NCBI GenBank assembly: GCA_943329075.2
Contig: CALQCM020000005.1
Span: 1 to 64,000, forward strand
Source: Chitinophaga pinensis
GTDB taxonomy: Bacteria; Pseudomonadota; Gammaproteobacteria; Burkholderiales; SG8-41
DNA: 64,000 nt
Direction of reading: 5' to 3'
The position numbers were made by a program, and so were the translations under genes. Shown piece after piece: positions 14,477 through 48,296 of the stretch. Every line of letters begins with the position of its first letter. The stretch's first letter is position 1. The notes beneath the pieces are model-generated. The model did no database searches. It worked only from the letters and a program-made list of their open reading frames with translations, and was not told where the DNA came from.

Positions 14477-14661
14477 CATTTGGATAGTGGAAGGTTTATG
14501 GCCAAGCGTTTTGGTAGATAAAGAAAAGACGTATCCACTAAGGCGGGACCATAAGCAGCGCAGCGAAATGCGCCACCGGCCAATGAAACCGACACATTGC
14601 ACGCAATTATTGTCCGGTGTAACCCCTCCCGGAATCCATTGCTAACCTTTTGGAGAGCGAA

Positions 14662-23418: not shown

Positions 23419-24393
23419 GTGGCGGTGATTCTGGATTACGCAACAATGGACGGCGCGCTGTCGATGCGCGACGTGATCGATCTGCTCGAACGCGCGCTCG
23501 CGCATGAGGCCGCCGGCCAAACGGACGTCTCGCAAAAATACATCACTGAATTCGCCGGCGGTGCGATGCGCATGCTGGTGGCTGCGGACCACGCTGCCGG
23601 TTATCTCGCCACCAAGGCCTACCATTCAATCGACGGCGCCGGGGTGCGCTATGTCGTCACGTTGTATCGATTGAAAGACGGCGAACTGCTGGCCTGGCTC
23701 GACGGGCAGTTGATCACCGATCTGCGCACCGGCGGTGCCAGCGGCGTGATTGCGCGCAAGGTGCCGCTCGCCGGCGCAGTAACGGTGGGCATCATCGGCT
23801 CCGGCAATCAGGCGCGCATGCAGCTCGAAAGTCTGGCTGCCGTCTATGACGTCAAAGCCGCGTCGGTCTACAGCCCGACCGTCGCCAACCGCGAAGCCTA
23901 TGCGCGCGAGATGTCGGCAAAGCTCGGCATCACGGTGACGCCGGTGGCCTCGGCGCAAGCCGCGGTGCGCGGCCACAAGGTGGTCGCGGCGGCAAGCAGT
24001 GCGCGCAGCCCAGAGCCGGTGTTGCGTGGCGAATGGCTGGCCGATTGCAAATTGCTCTGTGCGGTCGGCAATACGCGCAAGCAGTTTGCCGAGGTCGATG
24101 TTGACTGCTTTCGACGCGCCGCGCTGGTGGTGGCCGATTCGCCGCATGCCGTGCACGAAGCCGGCGATTTGATCCGGGCGGCGCAAGCCGGCGCGCTGCC
24201 GGCGGAAAAACTCAAGACGCTGGCGCAGGTTGTCGCCGGTGATGCGGTGCTGCCGGCCGACGGCATGATCGCCTTCAAGTCGGTCGGCACGGCGTTGCAG
24301 GATGTGGCGCTGGCGGGGCGTTATTACGAATTGCTCGGTGCGCGTGCTGGATTGCCGGGCAAGGCGGATTTTCCCCGCCCGCGCGACGCTTGA
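23419..24393 (+). CDS. Ornithine cyclodeaminase/mu-crystallin family protein
   Basis: 324-residue NAD(P)-dependent enzyme of the ornithine cyclodeaminase family, whose members include ketimine reductases, alanine dehydrogenases and ornithine cyclodeaminase. The Rossmann motif is VGIIGSGNQARMQLESL (around residue 120-135). The substrate-arginine region is LATKAYHSI. The start is GTG at 23419 after a purine-rich stretch. Which amino or keto acid it acts on is not clear. Placement after a Bug gene and before DapA-like genes suggests catabolism of an imported keto or amino acid. Confidence 0.85.
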   Translation: MAVILDYATMDGALSMRDVIDLLERALAHEAAGQTDVSQKYITEFAGGAMRMLVAADHAAGYLATKAYHSIDGAGVRYVVTLYRLKDGELLAWLDGQLITDLRTGGASGVIARKVPLAGAVTVGIIGSGNQARMQLESLAAVYDVKAASVYSPTVANREAYAREMSAKLGITVTPVASAQAAVRGHKVVAAASSARSPEPVLRGEWLADCKLLCAVGNTRKQFAEVDVDCFRRAALVVADSPHAVHEAGDLIRAAQAGALPAEKLKTLAQVVAGDAVLPADGMIAFKSVGTALQDVALAGRYYELLGARAGLPGKADFPRPRDA

Positions 24394-24568: not shown

Positions 24569-25486
24569 ATGCCAATTAATCTTCATGGCGTGATGCAGGC
24601 CCCGGTTACTCCGTTGAAAGACGATTTCAGTTTCGATGGCGACGGTTTCGCCAAGATGGTGGACTTTCACGTCCGCCACGGCGCGCCGGCGATTGCCTGG
24701 CCGCACCACAAGGCCGAGTCGCTCAATCTGACGATAGCCGAGCGCAAGCTCGGTGCCGAGATCGCGGTCAAGACTGTTGCCGGCCGCGTGCCGGTGTCGA
24801 TTTTCACCGGCACCCTGTGCGAGGAAGATTCTCTCGATATCGCCAAACACGCGCAGAAAATCGGCGCCGACCTGCTGCTGACGATTTCGCCGTACTGCCG
24901 GCGGCCGACGCAGGAAGAAATATTCGATTCGATCGTGCGCATCGCCACCCACACCGATCTGCCGATGCTCACCTACAACTCGCCGTGGCGCAATGGCGAG
25001 GGCGTGGAGTTCACCGGTGAACTGACGCAGCGCCTGATCGAGCGCCTGCCCAACTATATCGGCATGAAGGACGCCAGTTTCCACAGCGAAAAGTTCATGG
25101 AGATCTCGCGCATCTCGCTGAAAATGCGGCCGGGTTTCGCCATCATCATGGGCGTCGAACACCTGCTGGCCTCGTATCCGCTAGGCGCCTGCGGTTCGTT
25201 CTCTTCGTCGGGTGCGATTGCGCCGAATCTCTGCAACAAATACTTCGCTGCACTGGTGGCCAACGACTGGCCGCTCGCGCGTGAATGTCAGTACAAGATT
25301 TCACGGTTGTGGCGCGTCTTCAAGGAGCAGTACCCGTCGTCGCTGAAAGGCGCCATGATCATGATGGGGCGCCCGGTCGGGCCCACGCGTTCGCCGTTGC
25401 CCACCGCAACCAAGGAACGCATCGCCTTCCTGCGCCAGCAGCTTGAAGAACTCAACATCCTGCAGACCGAGCCGCACGGCTGGTAA
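24569..25486 (+). CDS. DapA-family aldolase/dehydratase with catalytic lysine
   Basis: 305-residue member of the dihydrodipicolinate synthase/N-acetylneuraminate lyase superfamily, class I TIM-barrel aldolases that form a Schiff base with an oxo acid. The lysine is K167 (IGMKDAS) and the active-site tyrosine Y136 (MLTYNSP). The carboxylate-binding loop, GTTGE in E. coli DapA, reads PHHKAES here, so it is not a lysine-pathway enzyme. It ends EPHGW. It sits 34 bases upstream of a second DapA-like gene that lacks the lysine. A near-identical pairing occurs at 45175-47035. Confidence 0.88.
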   Translation: MPINLHGVMQAPVTPLKDDFSFDGDGFAKMVDFHVRHGAPAIAWPHHKAESLNLTIAERKLGAEIAVKTVAGRVPVSIFTGTLCEEDSLDIAKHAQKIGADLLLTISPYCRRPTQEEIFDSIVRIATHTDLPMLTYNSPWRNGEGVEFTGELTQRLIERLPNYIGMKDASFHSEKFMEISRISLKMRPGFAIIMGVEHLLASYPLGACGSFSSSGAIAPNLCNKYFAALVANDWPLARECQYKISRLWRVFKEQYPSSLKGAMIMMGRPVGPTRSPLPTATKERIAFLRQQLEELNILQTEPHGW

Positions 25487-25520
25487 ATCAAAAAAACGCG
25501 AAACGAGAGAGAACAAGATC

Positions 25521-26435
25521 ATGGCTAATTTCAAACCCGGTCTGGTGCATGCACCGGTCACGCCGTTCAAGGCCGACCACAGCATCGACTATGAAACCTA
25601 CGCGAAACTTATTGAGTTCCACCTGAAAAACGGCGCCGAGGCGATTGCCGCGCCGATGCCCGCGGGCGAAGACATGAGCCTGAAGGACGACGAACAGGGT
25701 GTGCTGCTCGACTTCGTCATCAAACAGGTGAAGGGCCGTGTGCCGGTCATTGCGCATGTCAGCGACGCGGGCACCACCATCGCCATCGAACGCGCCCAGC
25801 ATGCCGCCAAAGCGGGTGCCGCGGCGATCGTGTCGCATCCGCCCTATTTCTGGCATCCGAAGGCCAGCATGGTCACCGAGCACCTCGCGCAGATCGGCAA
25901 CGCGACCCAGCTGCCGTTTTTCCTGTGCAGCCCGCCGGTGGAAGACGTCGGTACGCCACTGACCACTGAAATCATGCTCGATGTCATCGATCGTGTGCCG
26001 ACGCTGTGCGGCGTGGTCGATGCGACGATGGATTTCGTCATCATGGTCGAAACCGTTTCGCTGGGCAGTGCCAAGCGTTCGGGGTTTCAGCTGATTCCGG
26101 GCACCGATTACATGGTGCCGGCCGGTGCGATCGGCGGCATGGGCGTGTTCTCGCCGCTGGCCGCGGTTGCGCCGAAGCTGGTGAAGCAGGTCTACGAGTT
26201 GTGCACCAAACAGCAGTTCACGCAGGCGCGCGCGGCGCAGGAAGACCTTGCCGAACTCGCGCACTGTCTGAAGCTCGCGGGTCTGGCCGGCCTCAAGGGT
26301 GCGTTGCGCGCGATGGGGCGTGATTGCGGAGAACCGCGGCCGCCGGCACGCGCGCTGACCGAGGCAGAACACCGCAAACTCGCCGCCGGCCTGCAGGCGA
26401 TGAAATTTATGCAGGCTGAACCGCGCGGCTGGTAG
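25521..26435 (+). CDS. DapA-like protein lacking the Schiff-base lysine
   Basis: 304-residue DapA-superfamily protein starting at MANFKPG. In the strand that carries the Schiff-base lysine it reads LCGVVDATMD, with V166 where IGMKDAS of its neighbour has lysine. The active-site tyrosine is C136 (FFLCSPP). In contrast, the loop AGEDMSL keeps the glycine-glutamate of the canonical carboxylate-binding region. No frameshift or stop is present, so this is a maintained gene, not a decaying one. It may be a regulatory or structural subunit of the preceding enzyme, or catalyse a different reaction. It ends EPRGW. Confidence 0.85.
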   Translation: MANFKPGLVHAPVTPFKADHSIDYETYAKLIEFHLKNGAEAIAAPMPAGEDMSLKDDEQGVLLDFVIKQVKGRVPVIAHVSDAGTTIAIERAQHAAKAGAAAIVSHPPYFWHPKASMVTEHLAQIGNATQLPFFLCSPPVEDVGTPLTTEIMLDVIDRVPTLCGVVDATMDFVIMVETVSLGSAKRSGFQLIPGTDYMVPAGAIGGMGVFSPLAAVAPKLVKQVYELCTKQQFTQARAAQEDLAELAHCLKLAGLAGLKGALRAMGRDCGEPRPPARALTEAEHRKLAAGLQAMKFMQAEPRGW

Positions 26436-26460: not shown

Positions 26461-27405
26461 ATGAAGGCACTTCGCAGCGCGGCGGCACTCGTTGCCGCCG
26501 TCATCTGCGCCGCCGCGCAGGCGCAGTCCTATCCGGCGAAGCCGGTGCGGTTTGTCACCTCCGAACCCGGCGGTGGTAACGACATCGCCGCACGCGTGCT
26601 GGCCGAAGGTTTGACAACCAGTCTTGGCCAGCGCGTGATTGTCGACAACCGCGGCATCGTTGCTGCGGAAATTGCCAAGAACGCCAACCCCGATGGTTAT
26701 ACCTTGCTCGTCTACGGCGCCAACATCTGGCTGTTGCCGTATTTGCGTGAGCATGTGGCGTGGGACCCGCTGCGCGACTTTGCGCCGATCACCATCGCGG
26801 TGCAGTTGCCCAACGTGCTTGTCGTTCATCCGACGGTGCCGGTGAAAAGCGTGCGCGAGTTGATCGATTACGCCAAAGCGCGGCCGGGCAAACTGGATTA
26901 CGCCGCCGGCACCATTGGGGTGTCGCCGCATTTGTCAGCCGAGTTGTTCAAGGCGATGACCAGCATCGATATCGTCCGCGTGCCGTACAAAGGCGGCGGC
27001 CCGGCGTTGAACGGCCTGATTGCCGGCGAAACCCATTTGATGTTTCCGAATGTGGGCGGGGCGATGCCGCATATGAAATCGGGCCGCGTGCGCGCGCTGG
27101 CGGTGTCGAGTGCACAGCCGTCGGCGCTGGCGCCGGGTCTGCCGACGATCGCCGCCACGGTGCCGGGTTATGAATTTTCCGCCGTGATCTGCCTGTATGC
27201 GCCGGCGAAAACACCGCCCGCAATCGTTGAACAACTCAACCGCGAAGCGGTGCGCGTGCTCAAATCGCCGGAGGTGAAAGAACGTTTGTTCAATTCCGGC
27301 GCAGAAGTGGTGGCCAATTCGGCGCGCGAGTTCGCCGCCTACATGAAGGCCGATATGCAGAAAATGGGAAAGGTGATCAGGGATGCAGGCATCAAAGCGG
27401 AATGA
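26461..27405 (+). CDS. Bug/TctC solute-binding protein
   Basis: 314-residue Bug protein 25 bases after the lysine-less DapA-like gene. Signal peptide ends near ICAAAQA. Motifs: YPAKPVRFVTSEPGGGND, DNRGIVAAEIA, NPDGYT and RVPYKGGGPALNGLIAGE. It belongs to the same subgroup as the island Bug at 9281. Its 3' end overlaps the following SDR gene by 23 bases, indicating translational coupling. Confidence 0.93.
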   Translation: MKALRSAAALVAAVICAAAQAQSYPAKPVRFVTSEPGGGNDIAARVLAEGLTTSLGQRVIVDNRGIVAAEIAKNANPDGYTLLVYGANIWLLPYLREHVAWDPLRDFAPITIAVQLPNVLVVHPTVPVKSVRELIDYAKARPGKLDYAAGTIGVSPHLSAELFKAMTSIDIVRVPYKGGGPALNGLIAGETHLMFPNVGGAMPHMKSGRVRALAVSSAQPSALAPGLPTIAATVPGYEFSAVICLYAPAKTPPAIVEQLNREAVRVLKSPEVKERLFNSGAEVVANSAREFAAYMKADMQKMGKVIRDAGIKAE

Positions 27406-28159
27406 CGGCGTGCGGCCGGTGGCGTTTGTCACGGGTGCGTCTTACGGCATCGGCGCAGCGTGTGCGCTGGCACTGGCGCGCGACGGTTACGACATCGCGC
27501 TGGCGGCCACCCGCGTCGAGAACCTCGCCAAAACCGTCGAGCAGGTCAGGGCAAGCGGACGGCGCGTTGTGCCGGTGGCGCTCGATCTCAATGCGCAGGC
27601 GAGCATCGAGCAGGTGTTTGCATCGGTGGTGGCGGCCTTCGGGCGCGTCGATGTGCTGGTCAATAACGCTGCATCAAACATTCGCCGCAAGGCCGTCGAT
27701 GTGACGCCGGAAGAATGGCAGGCGCACATCGGCGTTAATCTCACCGGCACTTTTTTCATGACGCAGCAGATGGGCCGCCATTTGATCGGTGCGAAACGCC
27801 CGGGCTGCATCATCAGTATCTCCTCCACACACGCCGTGATCGGGGCGGCCGAACGCTCCGTCTACGGCGTCGGCAAGGCGGGCGTCGTGCACATGGCACG
27901 CATGCTGGCTATCGAGTGGGCCGAATACGGCATCCGCGTCAATACCGTCGCGCCCGGGCGGCTCGATACCGAGTCGCCGTCGCGCGCCAGCACCAGCAGC
28001 GACCCGAAATACATGCAGGCGATGATCGACAAGATCCCGCTGCACCGGTTGTGCACGGTCGAGGATGTTGCCGGTGCCGTGTCGTATCTGGCCAGTGATG
28101 CGGCATCCTACATCACCGGCCAGACCCTCATGCTCGACGGCGGGTTGACGTCGTATTAG
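27383..28159 (+). CDS. Short-chain dehydrogenase/reductase
   Basis: 258-residue classical SDR with TGASYGIG cofactor motif, NNAAS, catalytic serine in IISISST and intact YGVGK motif. Probably oxidises or reduces a hydroxy/keto group on the compound handled by this operon. It overlaps the Bug gene upstream; a start a few codons later at a GTG is also possible. The last gene of the 22.4-28.2 kb operon. Confidence 0.9.
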   Translation: MQASKRNDGVRPVAFVTGASYGIGAACALALARDGYDIALAATRVENLAKTVEQVRASGRRVVPVALDLNAQASIEQVFASVVAAFGRVDVLVNNAASNIRRKAVDVTPEEWQAHIGVNLTGTFFMTQQMGRHLIGAKRPGCIISISSTHAVIGAAERSVYGVGKAGVVHMARMLAIEWAEYGIRVNTVAPGRLDTESPSRASTSSDPKYMQAMIDKIPLHRLCTVEDVAGAVSYLASDAASYITGQTLMLDGGLTSY

Positions 28160-45174: not shown

Positions 45175-46098
45175 TTACCAGCCCGTCGGCTCGGACGATA
45201 GCCACTTCAGACCTTTGAGGTCGGCAGCGAGTTTTTCTATCTCGCCCGGGCTCAAGGGATCGAGCGGCGGACGCACCTGGCCGACATCGCGGCCCATGGC
45301 GCGCAGCGCGCCTTTGAGCGCGCCGCGACCATAGGGCTTGAGCGTCTGGCGCAGCACGACGATCTCTTCCTGCGTTTCGCGCGCGTCGAAATACTTCTCG
45401 GTGCGGCAGATTTCGTAGAGCTTCTGCATGCGCCTGGGCGCAATGGCGGCGAGCGAGCTGAACATGCTGGTGGCGCCGACGGCACCGGCTGACACCATGT
45501 ATTCGTTGCCGGCAAGCAGTTGGAAATCCGGCCGCTTGCGCCACGCGTTAGAAACGACGTTGATCATGAACTGCCAGTCGAGACTGCAGTCGGCGACGCC
45601 GGCGAAATTCGGCAGGCGGTCGATCAGCTTCATCATCATGTCGGCGTTGATGTGGTGGGTGCCGCCCAGTTCATCGGGCGTAAACAGCACATAGAACGGG
45701 ATTTTCACTGCGCCACCAATTGAAGCGAAGTGTTCGAGCACCATGTTCGCCGGCGGTGTCCAATAGTAAGTGGAGGTCGCGATGACGGCGGCGGCGCCGG
45801 CTTTTTCGGCGTACTTCGCGCGCGCGACGGCGATCGCCGTGCCCGGATCGCTGACATGCGCGATGACCGGCACCTTGCCTTTGACCTGTCTGATGACGAA
45901 ATCGATGACCTTGCGCTGCTCGGCGTCGGACAGGCTGACCGATTCGCCTTCGTGCATTTGCACCGCCAGCGCCTGCGCGCCATTATTCAGATGAAAGGCG
46001 ATGATTTTTTCGAACGTGCCGTAATCGATTTTGAGGTCGGGCGTGAACGGCGTCACCGGCGAGTGGACCAGACCTGGCGTGAATGTAGGCATCTTCAT
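45175..46098 (-). CDS. DapA-like protein lacking the Schiff-base lysine
   Basis: 307-residue DapA-superfamily protein from MKMPTFTPG. The lysine strand reads NFAGVADCSLD, with A169 in place of lysine, and the tyrosine is L138 in FYVLFTP. The carboxylate loop HEGESVSL keeps the Gly-Glu-Ser of canonical enzymes. Closest relative in the window is 25521-26435, which has lost the same residues. It starts 22 bases after the lysine-containing DapA-like gene. Ends EPTGW. Confidence 0.85.
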   Translation of the reverse strand: MKMPTFTPGLVHSPVTPFTPDLKIDYGTFEKIIAFHLNNGAQALAVQMHEGESVSLSDAEQRKVIDFVIRQVKGKVPVIAHVSDPGTAIAVARAKYAEKAGAAAVIATSTYYWTPPANMVLEHFASIGGAVKIPFYVLFTPDELGGTHHINADMMMKLIDRLPNFAGVADCSLDWQFMINVVSNAWRKRPDFQLLAGNEYMVSAGAVGATSMFSSLAAIAPRRMQKLYEICRTEKYFDARETQEEIVVLRQTLKPYGRGALKGALRAMGRDVGQVRPPLDPLSPGEIEKLAADLKGLKWLSSEPTGW

Positions 46099-46120: not shown

Positions 46121-47035
46121 TTACCAGCCGTGCGGCTCGGTATCCAAAATGCCAAGTTCCTCAAGCTTCTTGGCGATCAGCGCTTCGCGCTCCTTGCTTG
46201 CGGTCGGCAGCGGCGGACGCGTCGGCCCGACGTAGCGGCCCATCGCAACCATGCCGCCCTTGAGCGACGACGGATACTGGTCGCGGAACAGATCCCACAG
46301 CGCGGCAAGCTTGAACTGCAGTTCGCGCGCTTCGGCGCTACGGCCGTTGATACAGGCATCGAACAGCGCGGTGCACAGGTTCGGGCAGATCGCGCCGGCC
46401 GACGAGTAGGAACCGACGCAGCCCAGCGGCACCGAAGGGGCTAAAAATTCCACGCCGGCGACGATTGAGAAACTCGGCCGCACTTTCAATGCCACGCGCG
46501 AGATTTCCATGAACTTCTCGCTGTTGAAGGAGGCTTCCTTCATCGCGACCAGGTTGGGCAGCCGCAACAGCAGGCGCTCGATCAGCTCGGCGGTGAACTC
46601 GACGCCTTCGAGATAGGCCGGCGAGTTGTAGGCGATCATCGGCAGATCGATCGAAGTGCCGAGGCGCACGAAGTAATCGTAAATCGCGTCGGGCGAGGGC
46701 GCCCAGAAGTACGGCGTGATGGCGATGATCGCATCGGCACCGATTTTCTGCGCGTGCTGCGCGAGATCCATTGCATCTTCAACCGACATCGCACTGACGT
46801 GGATCGACACCGGCACGCGGCCGTGCACGGCATTGACCGTGGCCTCGGCGCCGCGTTTGCGCTCTTCCATCGTCAGATTGTGCGATTCGGCTTTGTGGTG
46901 CGGCCACGAGATCGCGGTGGCGCCGGTGCGGACGTGGAAATCGACGAGTTTTTCGTAGGTCGGGATGTCCAGGCTGAAGTCTTCCTTCAGCGGAGTGACC
47001 GGACTCTGCATTACGCCTCTGAGTATGAGCGCCAT
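46121..47035 (-). CDS. DapA-family aldolase/dehydratase with catalytic lysine
   Basis: 304-residue DapA-superfamily enzyme with K166 (LVAMKEAS) and Y136 (MIAYNSP). The loop is SWPHHKAES, as in 24569-25486, its close paralogue. Ends EPHGW. It heads the minus-strand operon with the lysine-less gene, two Bug genes and the GST, and is divergent from a LysR gene. Confidence 0.88.
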   Translation of the reverse strand: MALILRGVMQSPVTPLKEDFSLDIPTYEKLVDFHVRTGATAISWPHHKAESHNLTMEERKRGAEATVNAVHGRVPVSIHVSAMSVEDAMDLAQHAQKIGADAIIAITPYFWAPSPDAIYDYFVRLGTSIDLPMIAYNSPAYLEGVEFTAELIERLLLRLPNLVAMKEASFNSEKFMEISRVALKVRPSFSIVAGVEFLAPSVPLGCVGSYSSAGAICPNLCTALFDACINGRSAEARELQFKLAALWDLFRDQYPSSLKGGMVAMGRYVGPTRPPLPTASKEREALIAKKLEELGILDTEPHGW

Positions 47036-47318: not shown

Positions 47319-48296
47319 ATGGATAGTTTGCACGGTATTTTCGTATTCCTGCGCGTCGCCGAAGCCGGCACGCTGAGCGGTGCTGCGCGCGCGCTGGGCG
47401 TGTCCACTTCGGCGGTGAGCGCCACCCTGACAAGGCTGGAACGCCGCCTGTCGGTGCGCCTGCTCAACCGCACGACACGCAGGCTTAGCGTGACCGCGGA
47501 AGGCGCCGAGTTCTACGCACGCTGCAAGCAGATCACCGCTGACCTCGAAGAGGCCGAGCTGACGGCGGGCCGCGCCGGCCGCGTGCCGAGCGGGCGGCTG
47601 CGCGTCAGCATGCCCTCGGCGCTCGGCCGCATGTGGATCGTGCCGCACCTGCCAGATTTCATGCGCGACTATCCGGCGGTCTCGCTCGAAATCGTCTGCA
47701 GCGACTTCGTGCCGTTTTCGATGGAGTCCGGCATCGATGCCTCGGTGCAGGTCGGCGAACTGCAGGATTCGCGGCTGGTAGTACATCGCCTCGCGTCAAC
47801 GCGTTACGTCGTCTGCGCGTCACCCGATTATCTGAAGGAACGCGGCACGCCGCGCACGCCCGAGGAACTCACCGCCCACGCTTGTTTAACGTACCGCCGC
47901 CCGCGCAACGGCCGCATTCGCGAATGGCGCTTCAAAAGCGGCGGCGCCATGCGACATGTGGCGATGAACGGTTACATGACTTTCAACAGCGGTGAAGCGC
48001 TGGTCGCCGCCGCTGCCGCGGGCCTCGGCATCGTGCAGGTGGCCGAGTACTACGCGCGGCCGCGGCTGAAAAGCGGCAAGCTGGTTGAAATCCTCGCCGA
48101 CTACAAGACCGAGGGCTATGACATCTCGGTGGTGTTCAGGCAGCAGAAACGCGTCGCGCCGAAGTTGCGTGTGTTCGTGGATTTTCTGGTCGAGTTGTTC
48201 AAGGCGGCGCCGTGGGGCAAGCCGGGGGCGGGGCCGGCGCACAAGCGCGCGGCGCGGGCGCAGGCGGCAGCGCTCGGTGGCGGGGAGGAATTGTGA
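47319..48296 (+). CDS. LysR-family transcription regulator
   Basis: 325-residue LysR regulator from MDSLHGIF. HTH region LSGAARALGVSTSAVSATLT with RLERRLSVRLLNRTTR. It is of the CrgA/AaeR-like class. Divergent from the DapA-like operon by 283 bases, so it is a likely regulator of it. The C-terminus is rich in Ala, Arg and Lys. Confidence 0.93.
   Translation: MDSLHGIFVFLRVAEAGTLSGAARALGVSTSAVSATLTRLERRLSVRLLNRTTRRLSVTAEGAEFYARCKQITADLEEAELTAGRAGRVPSGRLRVSMPSALGRMWIVPHLPDFMRDYPAVSLEIVCSDFVPFSMESGIDASVQVGELQDSRLVVHRLASTRYVVCASPDYLKERGTPRTPEELTAHACLTYRRPRNGRIREWRFKSGGAMRHVAMNGYMTFNSGEALVAAAAAGLGIVQVAEYYARPRLKSGKLVEILADYKTEGYDISVVFRQQKRVAPKLRVFVDFLVELFKAAPWGKPGAGPAHKRAARAQAAALGGGEEL

Follow-up and report, generated by a model that had tools for sequence, protein, structure and literature searches.

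A DHDPS-family protein without the Schiff-base lysine is kept as a pair with a lysine-bearing paralogue in Burkholderiales

What does a protein of the dihydrodipicolinate synthase (DHDPS) family do when it lacks the family's Schiff-base lysine and is encoded beside a relative that keeps it? The window, a 64,000-nucleotide stretch of DNA, contains such a pair (pair I) on the forward strand. The first gene, A (24569..25486, 305 amino acids), encodes the lysine, and the second, B (25521..26435, 304 amino acids), does not. Translation supported the initial annotation, which had described two intact frames separated by 34 bases (25487..25520). The PF00701 DHDPS profile spans both proteins end to end, scoring 142.3 bits for A and 135.9 bits for B against a cut-off of 22.1, and the two proteins align over 299 columns with one gap and 30% identity. 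In the alignment, Lys167 of A (codon 25067..25069, + strand), which corresponds to the Schiff-base lysine K161 of E. coli DapA, lies opposite Val166 of B (26016..26018, + strand). Tyr136 of A (24974..24976, + strand), which corresponds to E. coli Y133, lies opposite Cys136 of B (25926..25928, + strand). The substitutions originally read from the two proteins, valine for lysine and cysteine for tyrosine, are therefore borne out by the alignment.

In fold, length, and end-to-end profile match, A and B both resemble members of the DHDPS/NAL superfamily (DapA, NanA, HOGA1, YagE, and KdgD; PF00701). The Schiff-base lysine, which the superfamily carries on strand 6, and Tyr133 are both kept in A; B proteins lack the lysine, and most also lack Tyr133. 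In an AF2 model (pLDDT 88.3, pTM 0.88), B folds into a complete barrel and has helices at its C terminus, and V166 lies within the strand formed by residues 162-167. Among solved structures, the best match to this model is 3na8 (TM 0.88), a putative dihydrodipicolinate synthetase of Pseudomonas aeruginosa. The initial annotation had raised the possibility that another barrel lysine replaces the missing one. Among 57 B proteins, we found no conserved substitute in the barrel except K26, which is common to A and is an arginine in nine of the 57. The only invariant lysine of B, K253, lies in the C-terminal region and is invariant in A too.

We could rule out that either gene encodes the DapA of lysine biosynthesis, since A and B score 142.7 and 141.5 bits with TIGR00674, below the cut-off of 206.15, and the best PF00701 match in the source genome lies elsewhere (C3:36258-37109, 328.6 bits). 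A also departs from DHDPS in the carboxylate-binding loop, where the G-X-X-G-E motif (PMC3188589) is replaced in the A clade by H/Y-H-K-A/G/S-E. This loop, which binds the pyruvate carboxylate in DHDPS, carries a second lysine, K45, in all 57 full-length A copies; unpaired relatives have isoleucine or valine there. K45 may mark a different substrate.

The source genome contains 16 PF00701 matches, including two adjacent pairs besides pair I. One of these, pair II, is in the same window on the reverse strand, with A at 46121..47035 (K161, Y133, and F107 in E. coli numbering) and B at 45175..46092 (A161, L133, and Y107). The pair II B is 50% identical to the pair I B. The third pair, on contig C23, shows the same lysine pattern.

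A search for adjacent pairs across the family, which the initial annotation had suggested, revealed that A-B adjacency recurs at about 60 loci. In 74 genomes of the window's family, we identified 57 B genes, with scores of 459-544 bits; the next matches scored 290 bits. A lies directly upstream on the same strand in 55 of the 57, and the remaining two B genes are at contig ends. One of the 55, L131, has a related lysine-bearing protein immediately upstream, and its true A lies 1.1 kb downstream. The spacer between A and B ranges from -7 to 492 bases in 57 full pairs. When one genome from each of 84,980 species was scanned with B, ten loci were found, all in betaproteobacterial metagenome-assembled genomes; A, whole or cut, adjoins B in nine of these, and at the tenth, L019, the contig ends where B begins. 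Of 399 genomes sampled from the order, ten besides the window's own carry B, and A was present in those same ten. Linkage of A and B is near-constant across several families of the order. In a sample of 369 genomes from the class, no match in the range of B was found outside the window's genome; the matches there scored approximately 140-160 bits, the best 160, compared to 532 for B itself. The sole match in a plasmid search was a distant DapA.

Some loci depart from this arrangement. At L131:7261-11230, a lysine-bearing DHDPS relative with Y107 is followed on the same strand by B, a TctC gene, and A, making three DHDPS-family genes. Genome G429 has a short A next to B (L106:4322-5095, - strand), of 257 amino acids and with a different C terminus, as well as an intact A without an adjoining B on another contig (L179:4276-5235, + strand).

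Loss of the lysine is a consistent feature of B. In 59 adjacent pairs, position 161 is lysine in all 59 A proteins and in none of the B proteins, which have valine (47), alanine (7), isoleucine (4), or phenylalanine (1). Since the same change occurs in 59 pairs, chance or a sequencing artefact can be ruled out as its source. Position 133 is tyrosine in all 59 A proteins, and this residue too is gone from most B copies. Lysine loss has also occurred independently in two members of a separate DHDPS clade (L154:2090-3034 and L157:8094-9035), where methionine replaces the lysine and cysteine or alanine replaces Tyr133. The near relatives of these two proteins (L155, L156, and L158) keep the lysine, and there is apparently no A partner nearby.

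In a quick tree whose root is unsure, a branch with SH-aLRT support of 100 separates A proteins from B proteins. Each is a single clade, which fits one event of lysine loss that preceded the spread of the pair. The distance matrices of A and B are correlated (r = 0.84 overall, and 0.72 and 0.76 within two groups), and none of 2000 permutations gave a correlation as high. Median dN/dS values (NG86), from 118 comparisons that share branches and so are not independent, were 0.072 for A and 0.140 for B, with a maximum of 0.294 for B. These values rule out that B is a pseudogene, and the frames are intact in nearly all of about 60 B copies. B has evolved faster than A (mean distance 0.43 versus 0.31). 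From the matched trees, the purifying selection, and the linkage, we conclude that B, judged by its sequences, is an old, maintained protein that is co-inherited with A. At this level of evidence, comparison of the copies shows A and B to be old paralogues of the DHDPS/NAL family that have been kept as a pair in the order A-B.

If B is maintained, which parts of it are under constraint? At the catalytic positions that act in cis in this family (44, 45, 133, 138, and 161), the mean entropy in B is 1.77 bits compared to 1.22 bits for all positions (P = 0.07), while in A it is 0.23 (P = 0.03). Ranked by conservation in B, position 133 falls in the 6th percentile, position 138 in the 13th, and position 135 in the 17th. 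The loop of residues 105-110 (E. coli numbering), which crosses the tight dimer, has an entropy of 0.30 in B (P = 0.003). Within groups the pattern is the same: the cis positions of B resemble average positions (P = 0.27-0.73), and its 105-110 loop is nearly invariant (P = 0.001-0.003). The loop is likewise conserved within groups in A, and unpaired relatives also seem to conserve positions 106 and 108. All B proteins also share H7, M43, E47, W108, E137, and D162, with H76 nearly invariant; of these, H7, M43, and E137 (E. coli numbering) are absent from A.

We lean, with a little more confidence than doubt, towards the explanation that A and B form a single hetero-oligomeric enzyme in which A would perform the Schiff-base chemistry and B would be a partner that helps to build the active site of A. 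Since members of this family build their active sites at the tight-dimer interface, A and B are predicted to associate as an A:B tight dimer or an A2B2 tetramer. A would carry out Schiff-base chemistry on pyruvate or an oxo acid; B would have no chemistry of its own and would complete and stabilise the site of A through the 105-110 loop. Such a complex would contrast with the DHDPS/NAL members described in PMC3188589, which are homo-oligomers. Five features of the sequences favour the one-enzyme reading: linkage at about 60 loci, matched trees, selection on B, drift of its cis site, and constraint on its loop. Of the options put forward in the initial annotation, these observations, through linkage, trees, selection, and constraint, strengthen the pseudoenzyme subunit and the allosteric partner, and they weaken the proposal that B is an enzyme with different chemistry. 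Other observations temper the one-enzyme reading. Two enzymes that serve one pathway would also be expected to have adjacent genes and matched trees. The A without a neighbouring B at L179 and the TctC gene between B and A at L131 argue against strict pairing. We also modelled A and B as a single chain, using a read-through of pair II at L018, but the model was too poor to use (pLDDT 68, pTM 0.46); it was built from an alignment of only 6 rows, since larger ones placed all single rows on one half.

A more specific version of the one-enzyme reading is that the active site itself is divided between the two genes, A giving the lysine and Tyr133 and B the cross-dimer loop with residue 107, such that only the A:B dimer would be complete. 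We put this forward tentatively and would not bet on it. Tyr107 of DHDPS reaches into the active site of the neighbouring monomer (PMC3188589), and its counterpart in hHOGA, Tyr140, also comes from the adjacent monomer (PMC4977564). Among the 59 pairs, the residues at position 107 in A and B are Phe and Tyr (30 pairs), Cys and Phe (27), Val and Phe (1), or Val and Tyr (1). Tyrosine is thus present in no A protein. It is present in every pair II B, and in this lineage, where A has phenylalanine or valine, B alone has the tyrosine. The full set of K161, Y133, and Y107 in pair II would then exist only at an A:B interface, an arrangement that is suggestive only. In pair I, no tyrosine remains at position 107 and B has phenylalanine; therefore, a tyrosine hydroxyl supplied by B cannot be the general point. 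Moreover, the cost of Y107F in E. coli DHDPS is only 12-fold and that of the corresponding Y140F in hHOGA is nil (PMC3188589), and together with the absence of Tyr107 from pair I this makes the division at position 107 no stronger than suggestive. Also against completion of the site of A by B, the tyrosine division is limited to pair II, and the 105-110 loop is conserved in A as well and seemingly, at positions 106 and 108, in unpaired relatives. Lysine-keeping relatives outside A-B pairs have Tyr, His, or Phe at this position. At L160, whose A is basal within the pair I clade of A proteins, A has F107 and B has Y107, so the C107 of A and the F107 of B probably arose within pair I.

B might instead be a regulatory subunit that joins A without completing its site, with a remodelled pocket that binds a metabolite and exerts allosteric control. 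The invariant residues of B leave room for a ligand or for other chemistry, and three of them (H7, M43, and E137) distinguish it from A. The fold can also host an allosteric ligand, as in the structures of Campylobacter jejuni DHDPS with bound lysine (4mlr and 7kls). However, there is no known feedback ligand or end product of the pathway, and position 45, which belongs to the pyruvate-carboxylate loop of DHDPS, is variable in B. We consider a purely regulatory B unlikely.

We also give little weight to the idea that B acts separately in the same pathway, as an enzyme with lysine-independent chemistry, such as acid-base catalysis with a conserved His, Glu, or Asp. In its favour, B is under purifying selection and has candidate residues among its invariant H7, M43, E47, W108, E137, and D162 and the nearly invariant H76. 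In addition, E. coli DHDPS in which K161 is changed to Arg or Ala loses 300-800-fold, but not all, of its activity (PMC3188589). Nevertheless, the canonical catalytic positions of B are among its poorly conserved ones, and a separate enzyme would leave the near-constant upstream A unexplained. Although tandem duplication is common and B evolves faster than A, the dN/dS of 0.14, the nearly always intact frames, the matched trees, and the near-constant linkage in several families make it very improbable that A and B are independent homo-oligomers sharing an operon, with B a dispensable relic of tandem duplication.

The hetero-oligomer that we prefer has a precedent in the deoxyhypusine synthase of T. 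brucei, in which a dead paralogue (DHSp) activates the catalytic one (DHSc) 3000-fold in a heterotetramer (PMC3663545). By analogy, this enzyme shows that an arrangement of the kind we propose for A and B can occur. Both systems would comprise two paralogues, one catalytic and one dead; the T. brucei enzyme differs in having another fold and reaction and in being eukaryotic, and for A and B hetero-oligomerisation and activation are predictions. Another case, PDX1.2, joins a barrel-type catalytic paralogue; its barrel family is unrelated to that of A and B, and there is no operon pair. This non-catalytic paralogue, which is regulatory in plant vitamin B6 synthesis, has been called a pseudoenzyme (PMC6829848). 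As expected of an enzyme-pseudoenzyme pair, B lacks the catalytic residue, is constrained, and is co-inherited with A. We found no description of a heteromeric or pseudoenzyme DHDPS pair in the literature searched, which covered only a minority of subscription journals.

Studied as a homo-oligomer, DHDPS serves as a model for the way in which contacts within an oligomer shape the active site. With approximately 60 sequenced copies and either Tyr or Phe at the cross-dimer position, a naturally split pair would permit the contribution of the second subunit to be tested directly, along with how a homomer becomes an obligate heteromer after duplication. If the active site is divided between the two genes, a single duplication would have been followed by a split of the family's catalytic apparatus between the paralogues, which Burkholderiales would have kept as a unit. 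The pair also urges caution in annotation, since dapA-like genes may be non-catalytic.

The neighbouring genes suggest that the pathway is the catabolism of an imported carboxylate. Upstream of pair I is a gene for an OCD/mu-crystallin family protein (23434..24393, + strand, start uncertain; PF02423, 130.6 bits; cluster 3). Downstream of B are a TctC/Bug tripartite tricarboxylate receptor (26461..27405, + strand; PF03401, 202.2 bits) and an SDR dehydrogenase (27383..28159, + strand; PF13561, 209.6 bits; cluster 6). Divergent from pair II is a LysR regulator (47319..48296, + strand; PF03466/PF00126; cluster 5). Over all loci, the recurring clusters are OCD/mu-crystallin oxidoreductases (24 members) and LysR (13), SDR (13), and GST-like (8) proteins, counts that are approximate since the gene calls were crude and antisense frames displaced some A and B genes; TctC/Bug receptors also recur.

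Two further features were apparent. Nearly all A and B proteins, as well as several unpaired relatives, end in an E-P-x-G-W tail. Between positions 14623 and 45206, the window contains many frames resembling TctC/Bug receptors (cluster 0), one of which was confirmed by Pfam.
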